From Deltaproteobacteria bacterium (GTDB lineage Bacteria > Desulfobacterota > Syntrophobacteria > Syntrophobacterales > Syntrophobacteraceae): a stretch of 64,000 nt of DNA. Shown here piece after piece: positions 46,496 through 54,313 of the stretch (position 1 is the stretch's first letter; each line of letters begins with the position of its first letter). Position numbers and translations under genes: made by a program. The notes beneath the pieces are model-generated. The model was not told the DNA's origin, did no database searches, and worked only from the letters and a program-made list of their open reading frames with translations. The DNA is taken from contig JAJYDE010000012.1 in NCBI GenBank assembly GCA_021777755.1, positions 1-64,000 on the forward strand, in the 5' to 3' direction.

Positions 46496-48502
46496 TCATC
46501 TAAACCGCATGAGGATGTCTCCGGTCTCCACGGCCAGCCCCGCAACCGCTCGAACCTCGTCGATGATCCCATCCTTCGGCGAGGCCACCCCGCTTTGCAT
46601 CTTCATCGATTCGAGCACCACCAGGTTCTGACCCCGAAAGACCCGATCGCCTACCGCCGCCAGCACTTCCACCACCAGCCCTGGCATGGGACAGACCAAC
46701 GCGTCCTCGGAGGGCTTTTCCACCTTGGCCGGCATGTACTTAAGAAGCGCCCACTCCTTGGGCTGGTAGATCTCGAAGACGCTCGTAATACCGCTAAAGG
46801 CAACGAAAACGAAGGACTGTTCGGCTCTTAGCCGGAATCGATGCACCTGGCCGTCAATGGTCAACCTGAGTCTGCGGCGGTAGAATTTAAATTCGGGCAT
46901 TATGACATCGTAGATGTTGCCATCGACGTGAATACTCCACCGATGGATTTCGCCGGTCCTTTCCAGCACCACCTCGAACAGATGCTCCCCCGAGCGGACC
47001 ATGTAAGGGTGGGCGCCCCCGTCTTCTTTCCTGGCCCCGATCAGGGAGACCATCGGACGCAGCGACTCTCGTATGGCCACCGTTTGCATGTGATAGACCA
47101 GCGCGGCCGCAAGGGCGGCCATCCGGAAGTTTGCCGCGTCGGGAGGATTTTTCGGCCTGCTGCCGTCGAAAAATTCTTCGATAAAACCGGTGGTCAGGTT
47201 TCCCGCGGCAAATTCGGGGTGGCACAAAACGCTGTTGACAAAATCGATGTTGGTGTCGACCCCTTCCATGTGATAGCCGTTCAAGGCCTCTATCAATCCG
47301 ATACGGGCCTCCTCCCGGTCCTTGCCGTGGCAGATGATCTTGGCCAGCATGGAATCGTAGTAGACCCCGATCCAACTGCCCGTTTTGACTCCGCTGTCCA
47401 CGCGCAGGCCTACTCCGTGGGGCTCTGCGTAGCGGGTGATCATACCGGTGGACGGCATGAACCCCCTGGAGGGGTTTTCAGCACAAATGCGCGCTTCTAT
47501 GGCCCAGCCTGTGAAATTGACCTCTTCCTGGCTAAGCGCGATCGGCTCGCCCGCGGCAATCTTGATCTGAAGTTCCACCAGATCCAGGCCGGTTACAGCT
47601 TCAGTCACCGGATGCTCGACCTGAAGCCGCGTGTTCATCTCGAGGAAATAGAATCTGCCGCCGCCGTCCAGGACGAACTCCACTGTCCCCGCATTGACGT
47701 AGCCCGCCTTGGCGGCCAACTCGCATGCGGCTTTTCCCATGCTTTTTCGCAGCTCTTCACCAAGGGCCGGGGAGGGCGATTCTTCGATGATTTTTTGATA
47801 GCGCCGCTGGATGGAACACTCTCTTTCACCCAGGTGGATGACCTTGCCGTAAAGATCCGCCAGGACCTGGATCTCCACGTGCCGTGGCCGCTCGATGTAG
47901 CGCTCGATAAAAACACGGTTGTCTCCGAAGGCCTTGAGCGTCTCCTGCCGGCTGGACTCAAGGGCGGCCTCCATTTCATTCGGGGCGCAAACGATCCGCA
48001 TGCCCTTGCCGCCCCCACCGGCCGCGGGCTTGAGCAGTACGGGATAGCCGATCTTTTCGGCTGCCGCCAAAGCTTCCCCCAAGTCGTTCAAGGCGCTCAC
48101 ATGGCCGGGGATGACCGGCACTCCCGCCTCGATCGCGAGTTTCTTGGAGGCGATCTTATCGCCCATGGCGCCAATGACTCCGGCGGGGGGGCCGATGAAT
48201 GTCAGCCCGGCCGAGGCGACCAGCTCGGCAAACCGGGAATTTTCCGAAAGAAAACCGTAGCCGGGATGCACCGCGTCGCAATGGGCCGAAAGGGCCGCCG
48301 AAACTATCCGATCCATGTCCAGATAAGATTGCCGCGCGGGCGCTTTGCCGATATGGAGGGCCTCATCGGCCACCAGGCGGTGCAAGCTGCGGCTGTCGGC
48401 CTCGGAATAGACCGCTACGGCGCCGATGCCCATCTTCTTACAGGTGCCGATGATGCGAACCGCTATTTCGCCCCGGTTGGCGATAAGGATTTTATCGAAC
48501 AT
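46496..48502 (-). CDS. acyl-CoA (propionyl/acetyl-CoA-type) carboxylase alpha subunit, biotin carboxylase with biotin carrier
   Basis: Protein of 668 aa combining biotin carboxylase (N-terminal KILIANRGEIAVRI, ATP-grasp GGGGKGM, metal/bicarbonate region EMNTRLQVEHPVTE), a linker domain and a C-terminal biotinyl domain with the biotin Lys in LESMKMQSG. It carboxylates its own biotin with ATP and bicarbonate. 8 nt separate it from the beta subunit gene. Family members act on acetyl-, propionyl- or methylcrotonyl-CoA; which one is not resolved here. Confidence 0.93.
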   Translation of the reverse strand: MFDKILIANRGEIAVRIIGTCKKMGIGAVAVYSEADSRSLHRLVADEALHIGKAPARQSYLDMDRIVSAALSAHCDAVHPGYGFLSENSRFAELVASAGLTFIGPPAGVIGAMGDKIASKKLAIEAGVPVIPGHVSALNDLGEALAAAEKIGYPVLLKPAAGGGGKGMRIVCAPNEMEAALESSRQETLKAFGDNRVFIERYIERPRHVEIQVLADLYGKVIHLGERECSIQRRYQKIIEESPSPALGEELRKSMGKAACELAAKAGYVNAGTVEFVLDGGGRFYFLEMNTRLQVEHPVTEAVTGLDLVELQIKIAAGEPIALSQEEVNFTGWAIEARICAENPSRGFMPSTGMITRYAEPHGVGLRVDSGVKTGSWIGVYYDSMLAKIICHGKDREEARIGLIEALNGYHMEGVDTNIDFVNSVLCHPEFAAGNLTTGFIEEFFDGSRPKNPPDAANFRMAALAAALVYHMQTVAIRESLRPMVSLIGARKEDGGAHPYMVRSGEHLFEVVLERTGEIHRWSIHVDGNIYDVIMPEFKFYRRRLRLTIDGQVHRFRLRAEQSFVFVAFSGITSVFEIYQPKEWALLKYMPAKVEKPSEDALVCPMPGLVVEVLAAVGDRVFRGQNLVVLESMKMQSGVASPKDGIIDEVRAVAGLAVETGDILMRFR

Positions 48503-48510
48503 CTTTTCCC

Positions 48511-50064
48511 TCACAGTGGAATGTTTCCGTGTTTGCGGGAAGGGCCCCGGCTCTTCTTGCCCTCGAGCACCTGCAAGGTGCGGATCAGGCGGTGGCGAGT
48601 GTCGCGAGGAAATATCACATCGTCGACATAGCCGCGTTGGGCGGCCAGAAAGGGGTTGGCAAAGGTGTGCCTGTATTGGGCCATCTTTTCGTTCAACATG
48701 GCCTCGGGGTCTTGCGCCGCCTGGATCTCTTTTCGGTAGATCACCTCCACCGCGCCCTTGGGGCCCATGACCGCGATTTCCGCCGTCGGCCAGGCATAAT
48801 TCACATCGCAGTGGATGTGTTTGGAGTTCATCACCAGGTATGCCCCGCCGTAGGCCTTGCGAACAATGACCGAAATACGCGGCACGGTGGCCTCGGTAAA
48901 TGCGTAGAGCAGTTTCGCTCCGTGGCGGATAATTCCCCCGTGCTCCTGGTCGGGGCCCGGCATGAACCCCGGAACATCGACCAGGGCGATCAGCGGGATG
49001 TTGAAAGCATCGCAAAATCTGACGAACCGGCCGGCCTTGAAGGAGGCGTTGCTGTCCAAAACTCCGGCCAGCACCGCCGGTTGATTGGCCACAAGCCCTA
49101 TGGTCTGCCCCCCCAGGCGGCCGAAGCCGCAGATGATGTTTCGGGCAAATCCGGCCTGAACCTCCATGAATTCGGCCCCGTCCAGGATGGAGTAGATAAG
49201 AACATTCATGTCGTAGGTCTGATTCGGGTTTTCCGGAATCAAAAAGTCCAGCGCCGGATCGATGCGGTCCGGGGGATCGCGAAGATCCAAAATAGGGGCG
49301 CGCTGACGATTGTTTGAAGGCAGATAGCTGATAAGGCGCCGGATCTCCCGCAGGCACAGCACATCGTTTGCCACGGTGAAATGAGCCACCCCGCTCACAT
49401 CCGAGTGAATTTCAGCTCCTCCCAACTCCTCGGAGGTTATCTCCTGGTGGGTTACCGTCTTGACCACACTCGGCCCGGTTACGAACATGTAGGAGGACTG
49501 GCGCACCATGAAAACGAAATCTGTGATCGAGGGGCTGTAGACCGCGCCCCCGGCGCACGGCCCCATGATGCACGAGATCTGGGGAACCACCCCGCTCGCC
49601 CTTACGTTGCGGTGAAAGATTTCACCGTAGGCGGCCAGGGCATCCACGCCTTCCTGTATGCGCGCACCCCCGGAATCGTTCAGCCCTATGATGGGATTTC
49701 CCACCCTTACCGCCATATCCATCACTTTGCATATCTTCTGGGCGTGGGCCTCGCCAAGCGAGCCCCCCGCGACCGTGAAATCCTGGCTGAAGACAAACAC
49801 CTCGCGGCCGTCGATAGTCCCGTGGCCGGTTATCACCCCGTCGCCAAGGTAGCTTTTCGTATCCCCCAGCGCCCCTCCGCGACCCACCTTGAGCACATCG
49901 AACTCCTCGAAGCTGCCGTCGTCCAAAAGCAGCCCGATCCTTTCGCGCGCCGTAAGCTTTCCGTTTCGATGCTGGGCCTCCATCCGTGCCTCGCCTCCGC
50001 CGGCGGAGGATTCAAAGCGAAGTCGCTCCAGGGTTTCAAGGGTCGTGCTGTATTGCGTGTCCAT
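48511..50064 (-). CDS. acyl-CoA carboxylase beta subunit (carboxyltransferase)
   Basis: Protein of 517 aa, PccB-like size. The two crotonase-fold halves are evident: GGSLGEAHAQKICKVMDMA with NDSGGARIQEGVD (N-terminal) and VDVPGFMPGPDQEHGGIIRHGAK with RKAYGGAYLVMNSKH (C-terminal), the acyl-CoA and carboxybiotin oxyanion-hole sites. It moves CO2 from biotin to the acyl-CoA. Most likely propionyl-CoA, judging by family and size. The ATG at 50064 has GAGGTGAG 4-5 nt upstream. Confidence 0.92.
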   Translation of the reverse strand: MDTQYSTTLETLERLRFESSAGGGEARMEAQHRNGKLTARERIGLLLDDGSFEEFDVLKVGRGGALGDTKSYLGDGVITGHGTIDGREVFVFSQDFTVAGGSLGEAHAQKICKVMDMAVRVGNPIIGLNDSGGARIQEGVDALAAYGEIFHRNVRASGVVPQISCIMGPCAGGAVYSPSITDFVFMVRQSSYMFVTGPSVVKTVTHQEITSEELGGAEIHSDVSGVAHFTVANDVLCLREIRRLISYLPSNNRQRAPILDLRDPPDRIDPALDFLIPENPNQTYDMNVLIYSILDGAEFMEVQAGFARNIICGFGRLGGQTIGLVANQPAVLAGVLDSNASFKAGRFVRFCDAFNIPLIALVDVPGFMPGPDQEHGGIIRHGAKLLYAFTEATVPRISVIVRKAYGGAYLVMNSKHIHCDVNYAWPTAEIAVMGPKGAVEVIYRKEIQAAQDPEAMLNEKMAQYRHTFANPFLAAQRGYVDDVIFPRDTRHRLIRTLQVLEGKKSRGPSRKHGNIPL

Positions 50065-50303
50065 CTCGCTCACCTCGGTTCCACAAACGTTGCGCCAACT
50101 TGACTTTAAGGCCCGTCCACGGCGTTTTACGCACGGGTTGTTTTGCGCCGGGAAAAATCGCCCCACCCCAAGGGGCTAAAAAACATACATTTTCCGCCTC
50201 GAATGCACAAGTTAAAACTCGGCGCGGGCAGAGTGCGCAAAGGGGGGGTGCGCAAAGCGCCAAAAGGTCTCAAGTGATGTGCCGATAGGAGATAATCGGG
50301 ATT

Positions 50304-50828
50304 CTATCTCGAAGCCGAAATCATCACGGCCGCGGCGGGTGCCACGAGATGCTCCCATTCGAGGCCCTCCGCCATACGCCGTCTAACCTCCCCGGCGCTT
50401 ATGCCCTTCTTGTCCGAAGGCCTTGTCCAGAGCACTTCCACCTTGAGCCCCAAAGCCTTGAACATCTCTTGTTTCCTCTTTCCCCAGTCGTCGTAGATGG
50501 TGAGATAAAAGACGGCGTCAAGAGGCAGGTAATAGCCGTAAAGCTCCGGCATGTTTACGGGGAAGGGAACTATGGAAAATTCCGGAGGCCAAACACCCTC
50601 TTCGATCACCGCCGCTCGGATGATCGTGTATCGTTCGAAATAACTCAGCGGATTGGACCCTGGCAGACTGCGGTTGGGGTCCGCCGGATCGGTTCTTGTG
50701 AGCGTGGGGTCGGGGTTTGTAATTCCGATGACCAGGTGGCCGCATCTGGTCTTGGCTGCCCGTATGTATTTGAGATGATCGAGATGAAAAACCTGGAAAC
50801 GGCCGTGAACGACTCCGGTCTCTACCAT
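50304..50828 (-). CDS. cytidylyltransferase/NMNAT-like nucleotidyltransferase
   Basis: About 174 aa. The nucleotide-binding HxGH-type motif is HGRFQVFHLDHLKY, and the second motif is KKGISAGEVRRRM (ISxTxxR-like). Such proteins join a nucleotide to a phosphorylated small molecule. Last gene of a five-gene operon; placed after a CDP-alcohol phosphatidyltransferase it may activate a phospho-polyol as CDP derivative (inference). Start: ATG 50828; an in-frame GTG at 50858 overlaps the upstream stop. Confidence 0.75.
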   Translation of the reverse strand: MVETGVVHGRFQVFHLDHLKYIRAAKTRCGHLVIGITNPDPTLTRTDPADPNRSLPGSNPLSYFERYTIIRAAVIEEGVWPPEFSIVPFPVNMPELYGYYLPLDAVFYLTIYDDWGKRKQEMFKALGLKVEVLWTRPSDKKGISAGEVRRRMAEGLEWEHLVAPAAAVMISASR

Positions 50829-50841
50829 AACCCCCCGCCCC

Positions 50842-51474
50842 TCATTTGCCGTGCACAAGCAAAATTCGCCTCACCACCACAATATTGGGATGCACCGCAA
50901 GATAGCTCAAGGCCAGAAGCGGGGCTGCCGGGAAAAATAGGCTCGCCCATGCGCAAAGCACGATGACGCTAGTTCTCGTCCCCTTGCTCGCAAGGGTCGG
51001 TTTGCCCATCGAGAGCCCCAGGCTTTCCGCCCGGGCCGTCGTGTAGCTGATGAGACTGCTCCCGCACAACGCAAAAAAACCCGCCGCCAGCAAAAGCGGC
51101 ACGGAAAAGTGGACGGGAAGTCTTAACAGGTAGATCACCATTCCGGTTATCAGGGACACATCCACGTAGCGGTCAAGAACCGAATCGAGAAAAGCCCCCC
51201 CTTTGGTCTCAAGGCCTGCAAGCCTCGAAAACTGGCCGTCAACGCCGTCTAGCAGCTGGGACATGGCGGCAAGAATTCCGGCCGCCCCTCCACAACCAAG
51301 GGCGAACAAAACGCCCCCCGAAACGCCGACAGCCGTTGAACACACCGTGATCATCCAGGGCCGGAGCCATTTGAGCTCGATGAGCCCGGGCGTAATTCGG
51401 GCGCACAGATTAAGCTTTATCCACTTCAAAACAAACCTGTCGGTCGGCTTCGTCTTCCACTGGTCTGACTTCAT
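50842..51474 (-). CDS. CDP-alcohol phosphatidyltransferase family membrane protein
   Basis: About 210 aa, five to six helices. The family motif D-G-x2-A-R-x8-G-x3-D-x3-D appears as LDGVDGQFSRLAGLETKGG followed by AFLDSVLDRYVD, with Phe-Ser for Ala-Arg flanks but both pairs of Asp intact. It would transfer a phospho-alcohol headgroup onto a lipid or soluble acceptor. It overlaps the TIM-barrel gene by 65 bp if the ATG at 51474 is used (TTG at 51501 is an alternative). Confidence 0.82.
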   Translation of the reverse strand: MKSDQWKTKPTDRFVLKWIKLNLCARITPGLIELKWLRPWMITVCSTAVGVSGGVLFALGCGGAAGILAAMSQLLDGVDGQFSRLAGLETKGGAFLDSVLDRYVDVSLITGMVIYLLRLPVHFSVPLLLAAGFFALCGSSLISYTTARAESLGLSMGKPTLASKGTRTSVIVLCAWASLFFPAAPLLALSYLAVHPNIVVVRRILLVHGK

Positions 51475-52252
51475 CACGGCTTTCCAAATATTTGCGAACA
51501 ACTCTTAGAGTTTTCATAAGCGGAGCTTCCTCGCGAAGCTCCAAAACCCACCAGTTGCACGAAAGTGCCCCCAGAAGGTCCAGGCGGCTACTGAGGTTTT
51601 CCACGCATTCGGGCGCCACGTGGCGATCGTCGATCTCCTCATGGTAGATGTGGGCGTTAAAAACCCGCCCTGGATTGGGCATGACGAAATCTTCCAGGTC
51701 AAACGACCGGCACCGCACCGCCTGGCACACCCTCGCATGACCGATATCAAGAGTAATACCGGCTCCGGATTTACTCACCAGCTTCTCAAACAGGTGGGGC
51801 CTGCTCGACCAGCCGGAGGCGAGGTTTTCCAGGCAAAGCGTAATGCCCAGCCCTTTTGCATAAGCGACCAACTCCGCCAAAGACCTTACCGTGCGCTCCC
51901 AGGAAAGGCCCTCGGGCGACTTTCTCCCCAACCCCAGGTGCACGGTAATATAAGAGCCATCGAGCCTGGAGACCACCCGGCAGACCCTTTCAAACAGCTC
52001 CATCGCCTCCTCGGCCTTGCGGTCATCCTCATCGCCCCCATCCACCCCTTTGAACGCGCAATGATAACGGATCTCCAGGCCGTTCAAAATCGAAATTTTC
52101 TCTAAAAGCCTCGATTCTTCCGCCCGGCTTCGCGGCAGCTCTTCGACCTTGAAGGTCCAATCGACCCCGGAAAATCCGTTTCGAACCGCCACGTCCCTAA
52201 GCTCTGCCGCATCCGGGATGAAATTGCAAATGGCAATGGTGGGCGAAATCAT
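51410..52252 (-). CDS. xylose-isomerase-like TIM-barrel protein
   Basis: Protein of 280 aa. Pattern of the sugar-phosphate isomerase/epimerase superfamily: VDWTFKVEELP, ITVHLGLGRKSP, LCLENLASGWSS with the metal Glu, ITLDIGHARV with Asp/His ligands, and NAHIYHEEIDDRH with His ligands. So the divalent-metal site seems complete. It may epimerise or isomerise a polyol or sugar phosphate. ATG overlaps the activase stop by 4 bp, in the middle of the five-gene operon. Confidence 0.8.
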   Translation of the reverse strand: MISPTIAICNFIPDAAELRDVAVRNGFSGVDWTFKVEELPRSRAEESRLLEKISILNGLEIRYHCAFKGVDGGDEDDRKAEEAMELFERVCRVVSRLDGSYITVHLGLGRKSPEGLSWERTVRSLAELVAYAKGLGITLCLENLASGWSSRPHLFEKLVSKSGAGITLDIGHARVCQAVRCRSFDLEDFVMPNPGRVFNAHIYHEEIDDRHVAPECVENLSSRLDLLGALSCNWWVLELREEAPLMKTLRVVRKYLESRDEVRPVEDEADRQVCFEVDKA

Positions 52253-53025
52253 TGAATACTTCCGTTTCTGCCGTAAAGCGCCGCGCCGATGGCCCCCACC
52301 ATGTCCGGGTTTTCAGGAACACTCACGGGCTGACCCAGTTGCTCTTCGAGAAGCCGTACGGCGCACGGGTTGTGGGCCACTCCGCCGGCAAACACCAGCG
52401 GAGGCGAGGCGCCAACCCGCCTTAGCATGGCGATCGTTCGCGAAATGATCGCCGCGTGCAGCCCCATGGCGATGTTTTCCGCACGCTCGCCCCTGGCCAT
52501 AAGAGAGGTGGCCTCGCTTTCGGCGAAAACCGCGCACATGCTGCTGATCTGCACCCGGCGCTCCGAGCGCAACGCAAACTCGCCAAAGGTCTCGATCGGA
52601 ACCTGGAGCGCCACGGCCATGAATTCCAAAAACTTCCCCGTCCCGGCCGCGCACCGGTCGTTCATCTCGAACTTGACCACCTTGCCGCTCCCCGACAAGG
52701 AGATCACTTTCGTATCCTGACCCCCTATGTCCAGAACCGTTCCGGCTTCCGGATGCAGGAACTTCACCCCGAGCGCGTAGGCCTGGATTTCGGTTATCGC
52801 CGAAACATTCAAACCGGGAAAGGATTCGGCGAACAGTTTGCGCCCATATCCGGTCGCCACCACCCGCACCCCCTCCAGTCCCTCGACGAGTTTTCGGCAC
52901 TGGCCCAGGGGATCGAAAGTGGTGGGCAGCTTTTCCCGGCGCACCACACCCCCCGAGTTCAATACAACCAGCTCTATCGAGCGCGAACCGATATCAATGC
53001 CCGCGACCATGTCCTTGTCGAACAT
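52249..53025 (-). CDS. ATP-dependent activase of 2-hydroxyacyl-CoA dehydratase/BadF-BcrA type
   Basis: Protein of 258 aa in the ASKHA fold: phosphate-1 VAGIDIGSRSIELV, TGYGR, LDIGGQDTKVISL, the Fe-S ligand pair in NDRCAAGTGKFLE and SMCAVFAESE, and VFAGGVAHNP. It forms a homodimer with a [4Fe-4S] cluster between subunits and drives one low-potential electron into its double-cubane partner at the cost of ATP. Its partner is encoded 13 nt upstream; GAGGGAG lies 9 nt before the ATG. Confidence 0.92.
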   Translation of the reverse strand: MFDKDMVAGIDIGSRSIELVVLNSGGVVRREKLPTTFDPLGQCRKLVEGLEGVRVVATGYGRKLFAESFPGLNVSAITEIQAYALGVKFLHPEAGTVLDIGGQDTKVISLSGSGKVVKFEMNDRCAAGTGKFLEFMAVALQVPIETFGEFALRSERRVQISSMCAVFAESEATSLMARGERAENIAMGLHAAIISRTIAMLRRVGASPPLVFAGGVAHNPCAVRLLEEQLGQPVSVPENPDMVGAIGAALYGRNGSIQ

Positions 53026-53038
53026 GACTAGAACTCCC

Positions 53039-54313
53039 TCAGCTCGTCATCTCGACGAAAGCTTCCACCCGGGTCTTCAGCTGTTCCACATCTTCCATGC
53101 TGTAATCGGTTTCGATGGAAAGCATGGAAATGCCGGCCTTTCCGAGCGCCTTTTCCACCTTGAAAGCCTCTATGGCGTAAGGTTGACAAAAAGAGAGGCC
53201 GTAGTGGATCACTCCGTCCACCTTGAGTTCGCGGGCCATATCGACCACGTTTTCCAGCCTTTCCGTATTGGGCGTAAAGCAGGCGCAGTCGATTCGCATA
53301 TAGCGGTCCACCAGAGCCTCGACCATCTCCTCCACGGTGGTCCCGGTTTCTTTCACCAGGTCCCGGGTATTGCGCGTACCTATGCAGGATTCCTCGCCCA
53401 CAATAACCGCGCCGGAAGACTCGATCACGTAGGGAAGCTTCCAGTTGGGAACGGCCATAGGACATCCCGATAGCATCAATCTCCTGGTCCCTTTCGGAAC
53501 CACCCCCTCTCCGGCCTTTACCCGCTCCGCCAGCTCATCGCACAACTCACCGATCTTGGCGGTGAAGCGGACCGGATCGTCGTAGAAAGATATCTGGTTG
53601 ATCAAAAGCGCGTCTCTACCCGAAATCGGCACGGGAACCGCCGCCCGAAGCCGGTTGAGTCTCTGCAGCACCAGCCGCCGCCCGTTCACCAGGTGAATCG
53701 CATCCTTCAAACTCTGCGCGGTGATCTTTTTGCCCGTCATCTCTTCGACTTTGTTTTTAAAACCCAGGACCTCGCTTTTCCAAAGAACCCGGTCGGAAGC
53801 CTTCTTCATCTGGGGGATTTCCATTACATGGACCGGAGAATAATCGGAGAAAATCTCGTAGGCCTTCTTCTTGCCGTCGCAGGTGGTCTCCCCGACGATA
53901 AGATCGCACGACTCGATATAGGGACAAAGCCTCGCGAGCTTGAACCCCACAAAGGACTTTATAAGTGCGCAGGTGTTTCTCGGCAGCACCTTCTCGGCCT
54001 GTTCGTTTCCAATCTCGGCCCCCGCGCACAAACCCACCTGGATCCCTCCGGCGGCCAAAACGATTTCCTCGGGGACGAAAACGCAGAAGGTCCCAACCAC
54101 GATTCTACCTGCGGCCTTGGCCTCCTGAAGCTCCTTGATCCTTAGCCCGTGGACCTCGGAGAGCACAAAGTCGAGGTATTCCATCCCCCGAAGACGCCCC
54201 TGCTGGCTCGCATGGATGTCCCCGTAGAATTTCCCGAGCACCTCGAGCAGCCCGCTGTGAGCGTCCAGGTCAAGATTGAGCTTTTCCCACATTGCATCGT
54301 ACGAATTAGCCAT
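53039..54313 (-). CDS. double-cubane-cluster protein, 2-hydroxyacyl-CoA dehydratase-like (YjiM/HgdB family)
   Basis: Protein of 424 aa. Cys residues typical of the DCCP/HgdB-like family are present: GTFCVFVP, GLCAGAEIG, PRNTCALIKSF, ARLCPYIESCD, GETTCDGKKK, SGCPMAVPN, EESCIGTRN, CACFTPN and LSFCQPYA. As a stand-alone single subunit with its own activase it matches the double-cubane [8Fe-9S] reductase type rather than the two-subunit dehydratases. It reduces difficult substrates at very low potential; the natural substrate is unknown. ATG at 54313 with GGGGGGGATTGG upstream, divergent from an ArsR regulator. Confidence 0.85.
   Translation of the reverse strand: MANSYDAMWEKLNLDLDAHSGLLEVLGKFYGDIHASQQGRLRGMEYLDFVLSEVHGLRIKELQEAKAAGRIVVGTFCVFVPEEIVLAAGGIQVGLCAGAEIGNEQAEKVLPRNTCALIKSFVGFKLARLCPYIESCDLIVGETTCDGKKKAYEIFSDYSPVHVMEIPQMKKASDRVLWKSEVLGFKNKVEEMTGKKITAQSLKDAIHLVNGRRLVLQRLNRLRAAVPVPISGRDALLINQISFYDDPVRFTAKIGELCDELAERVKAGEGVVPKGTRRLMLSGCPMAVPNWKLPYVIESSGAVIVGEESCIGTRNTRDLVKETGTTVEEMVEALVDRYMRIDCACFTPNTERLENVVDMARELKVDGVIHYGLSFCQPYAIEAFKVEKALGKAGISMLSIETDYSMEDVEQLKTRVEAFVEMTS

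Follow-up and report, generated by a model that had tools for sequence, protein, structure and literature searches.

In our preferred reading, to which we give a probability of roughly one half, the five closely packed genes at positions 50304-54313 of the window (the whole 64,000-nucleotide stretch of DNA analysed here) join two independent modules that met in one genus, and the second of these would be a two-step phosphodiester pathway. The first module consists of A and B, a double-cubane-cluster protein (DCCP) and an ASKHA activase; the second consists of C, D and E, a xylose-isomerase-like TIM barrel, a CDP-alcohol phosphotransferase and a nucleotidyltransferase of NMNAT fold, with an unrelated protein, here called og2, standing in the place of D in other lineages (C-og2-E).

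All five open reading frames described in the first-pass annotation lie on the minus strand, and their family calls are above cut-offs. A (424 aa) occupies 53039..54313, B (258 aa) 52249..53025, C (280 aa) 51410..52252, D 50842..51474 and E (174 aa) 50304..50828. A and B are separated by a 13 nt gap, and B and C share 4 nt (ATGA). C and D overlap by 65 nt if D begins at ATG 51474, a likelier start than the TTG at 51501 that opens the frame, and a further 13 nt gap separates D from E if E begins at ATG 50828. These spacings agree with the proposed one-operon layout in this genome and, because orthologs of all five are conserved, A to E can be taken as genes and not chance open reading frames. 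Biotin-carboxylase and carboxyltransferase genes (MmdA-like; 46496-50166) follow on the same strand as E, approximately 140-230 bp past it.

C, D and E belong together as a conserved module. A set of 118 related genomes was surveyed, most of which are metagenome-assembled, so that an absence may mean a missing piece of assembly; true E was found in 37 of them, D in 37 and C in 28. Every one of the 37 E-positive genomes carries either D (34) or og2 (3), with none carrying both or neither, and 27 of the 28 C-positive genomes carry E (Fisher p ~1e-17, not corrected for phylogeny). In several genomes, such as G013, G020 and G026, C lies on a different contig from D-E. These counts bear out the earlier grouping of the last three genes in one nucleotide-activated pathway. 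Gene calls outside the window were made with a home-made codon model, as shadow ORFs in the GC-rich DNA led longest-ORF calling astray. A broader scan of one genome per species returned 389 relatives of E, and the best 80 of these 389, which we examined, come mostly from Desulfobacterota-type bacteria, with others from Geobacter, Nitrospinia, a Planctomycetota-labelled MAG and Lokiarchaeota. Our literature searches found no description of C-D-E or of the og2-E pair. Desulforhabdus sp. TSK (G017) has two copies of D-E, on contigs C16 and C65 (L039, L067), the second with an internal stop in D, and in four loci of a diverged clade (L062, L063, L064, L066) the order is reversed, with E preceding D and overlapping it by a few bases.

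The partner of E is not always the same protein. og2 is a protein of approximately 437 residues in the alkaline-phosphatase superfamily, phosphoglycerate-mutase/PhpG-like and unrelated to D. Among the best 80 of the 389 loci, D lies near E in 35, og2 in 29, both in none and neither in 16; at two loci without a neighbouring partner, the partner is encoded elsewhere in the genome (D for L090, og2 for L088). Across whole genomes, an og2 ortholog (at least 570 bits) is present and a D ortholog absent in 18, where the D profile scores 89 bits at best, D (at least 330 bits) is present without an og2 ortholog in 5, and one bacterial genome (G144) has E with neither D nor og2 detected; some of these genomes appear identical to members of the 118-relative set, and the two sets are therefore not independent. 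The thresholds between og2 orthologs and paralogs were set by a clear score gap. The well-supported branches of the E tree require the D label to change at least twice and the og2 label at least four times, and both proteins are present in a deeply diverged clade. The distribution of D and og2 has the pattern of a non-homologous replacement of one step, and the mutual exclusion follows phylogeny in large part. Because C also precedes og2-E (in L103, L107, L109 and L119), it goes with both forms.

og2 keeps conserved metal and serine positions of its family, and hydropathy analysis shows a small number of weak segments in it. Against the model for apgM, the archaeal-type phosphoglycerate mutase, it scores approximately 320 bits, which meets or nearly meets the cut-off, and og2 orthologs occur without E in three genomes (G039, G102, G107); og2 might in fact be a true phosphoglycerate mutase that adjoins E for another reason.

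Several features of the neighbourhood of E were also noted. In Geobacter (L119:5572-10561 and L107), a bifunctional trehalose-6-phosphate synthase/phosphatase sits within C-og2-E, between og2 and E. At 14 loci, a small PHP-domain phosphoesterase (CehA/McbA-like) lies divergently beside og2-E (for example, L105:7946-8593 and L113:7889-8500), and none was seen beside D-E. In the Lokiarchaeota (L122, L123, L127, L132, L141), E has no C, D or og2 adjoining it and is found instead next to PHP-domain and, mostly, Mre11-like phosphoesterases; in three of the four lokiarchaeal genomes tested, a CDP-alcohol phosphotransferase is encoded elsewhere, at 112-120 bits against the D profile. Taken as clues to the product, the Geobacter trehalose synthase, the PHP/Mre11-like phosphoesterases, an isochorismatase and Hdr-like proteins indicate no single compound.

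The individual proteins give some indication of what the second module may do. C matches PF01261 at 67 bits (cut-off 31), with an AF2 model (pLDDT 87.5) whose best PDB folds are D-tagatose 3-epimerase-like and UlaE, and residues E142, D169, H201/H204 and E238 are invariant. A role as the cobamide phosphodiesterase CbiR was considered and rejected (33.5 bits against a cut-off of 105). D matches PF01066 at 38 bits (cut-off 22) and carries the complete signature DxxDGxx[AS]Rx8GxxxDxxxD, with serine at the [AS] position in the window copy; simple hydropathy gives five segments, against the six transmembrane helices of the class I family. Two invariant arginines, R176 and R212, align with R155 and R195 of MtPIPS, which bind the acceptor phosphate (PMC4634129). 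E matches PF01467 at 26 bits (cut-off 21), and its AF2 model (pLDDT 90.2) has an archaeal NMN adenylyltransferase (NMNAT) as its best PDB fold. In a 27-row alignment of the main clade, H8, G9, R10, F11, H15, D17, H18 and R149 are invariant. The earlier assignment of E as a nucleotidyltransferase therefore stands, with the correction that its motif reads HxDH (H-L-D-H) and not HxGH; diverged members have HxGH or HxEH at this position.

We propose that E would activate X-P, a small phosphorylated molecule, by condensing it with a nucleoside triphosphate (probably CTP), which would yield CDP-X. D would then pass the X-P unit of CDP-X on to an acceptor that is soluble and probably phosphorylated, with release of CMP, and og2 would take this step in other lineages, while C, with the fold of a metal-dependent sugar or sugar-phosphate epimerase, would probably prepare X-P or the acceptor. 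In the reaction of CDP-alcohol phosphotransferases, an alcohol receives a substituted phosphate from a donor linked to CDP (PMC4634129), and PhpF of the phosphinothricin pathway is a cytidylyltransferase of the same Pfam family as E, PF01467 (PMC6697681). For PhpG, our literature search gave only unrelated papers, and we take its reaction from the name of the NCBIfam model, CMP-5'-phosphonoformate--3-phosphoglycerate phosphonoformyl transferase. The D and og2 routes would thus share a need for a cytidylyl-activated donor, of which E could be the maker. A phosphorylated acceptor is suggested because D keeps the equivalents of both acceptor-phosphate arginines, and the acceptor of PhpG is also phosphorylated. 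We infer CTP as the donor of E from the family of D and by analogy with PhpF, and the fact that the nearest fold to the E model is an adenylyltransferase counts against it; we likewise infer the order of the steps, the phosphorylated acceptor and the role of C.

A soluble product appears likelier than a lipid, because the family of og2 is soluble and because AF2299 and AfDIPP synthase, which are among the nearest solved relatives of D, process no lipids (PMC4634129). It is tempting to speculate, at somewhat less than even odds, that E together with D or og2 makes an unrecognised soluble phosphodiester metabolite, perhaps a cofactor, an osmolyte or a signalling compound, in Desulfobacterota-type bacteria and possibly in Lokiarchaeota. 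D can be aligned both to AF2299 and to chain 4mnd of DIPP synthase, and D-E shares with these soluble-substrate systems (IPCT-DIPP synthase, AF2299) the pairing of a nucleotidyltransferase with a CDP-alcohol phosphotransferase. D-E differs from these systems in that E, which is not of the IPCT type, is an NMNAT-like member of PF01467, in that D and E are separate genes, and in that D is replaceable by og2.

Membrane lipid synthesis, NAD housekeeping and phosphonate metabolism are all less likely roles for C-D-E. The first of these would have D use CDP-diacylglycerol to make a phospholipid headgroup, for example of the inositol type, with E in a side role. The best NCBIfam matches of D are consistent with such a role, being archaetidylinositol-phosphate synthase (96 of 180 bits) and phosphatidylinositol-phosphate (PIP) synthase (79 of 170), both below cut-off, and myo-inositol-1-phosphate synthase is encoded in the window genome (G000) and most of the order. 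D also has in common with phosphatidylinositol-phosphate synthase the catalytic motif and both acceptor-phosphate arginines, and differs from it in scoring under the family cut-offs, in having a partner nucleotidyltransferase and in its likely soluble donor. CDP-diacylglycerol, however, needs no activating nucleotidyltransferase, and a universal inositol pathway found no support: genomes with E and genomes lacking it commonly encode inositol-1-phosphate synthase (PF01658), and the E-positive genomes G013, G091 and G095 do not. Together with the replacement of a membrane enzyme by a member of a soluble family, and with the two equally close relatives of D that process no lipids, these points make a lipid headgroup an unlikely product. 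Where the first-pass annotation had proposed an unusual polar lipid or a CDP-linked metabolite, it is the CDP-linked metabolite that survives as the better half, and the polar lipid is weakened.

The same annotation had placed all five genes in one pathway, with the DCCP supplying a reductive step toward one or the other of these products. The identity of A and B is not at issue. A scores 490 bits against NF040772 (double_cubane; cut-off 350) and aligns end to end with the Carboxydothermus structures 6eno/7yyl at 467 bits (phmmer), with the cysteines that align to the known DCCP (7yyl) kept; B scores 219 bits against TIGR00241 (cut-off 125) and has both motif cysteines, C125 (NDRCAAGTG) and C164 (SSMCAVF). 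Judged by these sequence features, A is a true double-cubane-cluster protein and B is the activase of A. The pair shares the cluster and activase cysteines of the Carboxydothermus system and differs from it in nothing essential, only in gene neighbourhood, and it would thus be an ordinary DCCP with its ATP-driven activase, with no tie seen to C-D-E.

A shared pathway does draw on the packed, partly overlapping operon of the window, and on the occurrence of A-B upstream of C-D-E in four more genomes of the genus (G002, G003, G007, G008; with short gaps in L037) and probably a fifth, G001, in which the contig breaks inside a second double-cubane gene. Outside this genus, however, A-B is unlinked to C-D-E, and in two genomes within it (G006, G010) both modules are present but apart. 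Most of the order carries a full-length A ortholog, be E there or not; five of its genomes have A without E (G004, G005, G021, G025, G037), and G009 and G020 have C-D-E without A. Within the order, the association of E with A gives p=0.07 compared to 1.5e-6 for E with C, both values ignoring shared ancestry. Two loci, L118 of Desulfatibacillum and L060, do have a DCCP-activase pair on the strand of E, approximately 3 kb downstream of it, but the DCCP there comes after an Hdr/FlpD-like set, which in L118 is separated from E by approximately 310 bp. We therefore consider it distinctly improbable that the five genes form one pathway. Of the five families expected to co-occur, C, D and E do so and A-B does not join them; the two modules are unlinked in most relatives and each occurs without the other, so neither linkage nor co-occurrence ties a reductive step to C-D-E.

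The history of the junction between the modules can be partly traced. Most of the genus has, next to A-B, a second double-cubane paralog (A2) that is approximately 36% identical to A and above the family cut-off (L031:2913-4127 and L037:11395-12609; also L033, L034, L036 and L148-L150). A2 lies between B and C in the linked relatives, and it is found beside A-B without adjoining C-D-E in G004, G005 and G006. The window genome has a single double-cubane match, and the direct B-C junction in the window was therefore probably derived by loss of A2.

Could E simply be the NMN adenylyltransferase of NAD salvage, with its neighbours incidental? Archaeal NMNATs (1f9a, 1ej2) are its closest solved structures, and E has in common with them the fold, GRFQ..H..H and the distal arginine motif. 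E differs, however, in its HxDH, in its genome partners and in its score of 41 bits with the archaeal NMNAT model, far from the cut-off of 181. Because the genome encodes a NadD elsewhere, E is unlikely to serve as its NAD enzyme, and the strict co-occurrence of E with D or og2 would be difficult to reconcile with incidental neighbours; we regard a salvage role as very doubtful. A phosphonate-handling role for C-D-E or C-og2-E, by analogy with the PhpF-PhpG step in the making of phosphinothricin, is largely refuted and highly improbable: og2-E does resemble that pairing of a PF01467 nucleotidyltransferase with a phosphoglycerate-mutase-like transferase, but no PEP mutase match was found in the window genome (E<=1e-30), only 1 of the 118 relatives has one over the family cut-off, og2 reaches just 180-217 bits of the 545 required by the PhpG model, and the window has D and not og2.

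Once the operon is split into two modules, it no longer offers a false clue to what the double-cubane reductase acts on, and a conserved C-D-E pathway comes into view to which no function has been assigned. What is new is that one place beside one nucleotidyltransferase is filled either by a membrane phosphotransferase or by a phosphoglycerate-mutase-like enzyme unrelated to it. This exchange limits the chemistry that is possible, and cultured hosts, among them Desulfacinum and Desulfoferrobacter, would allow the product to be tested for.
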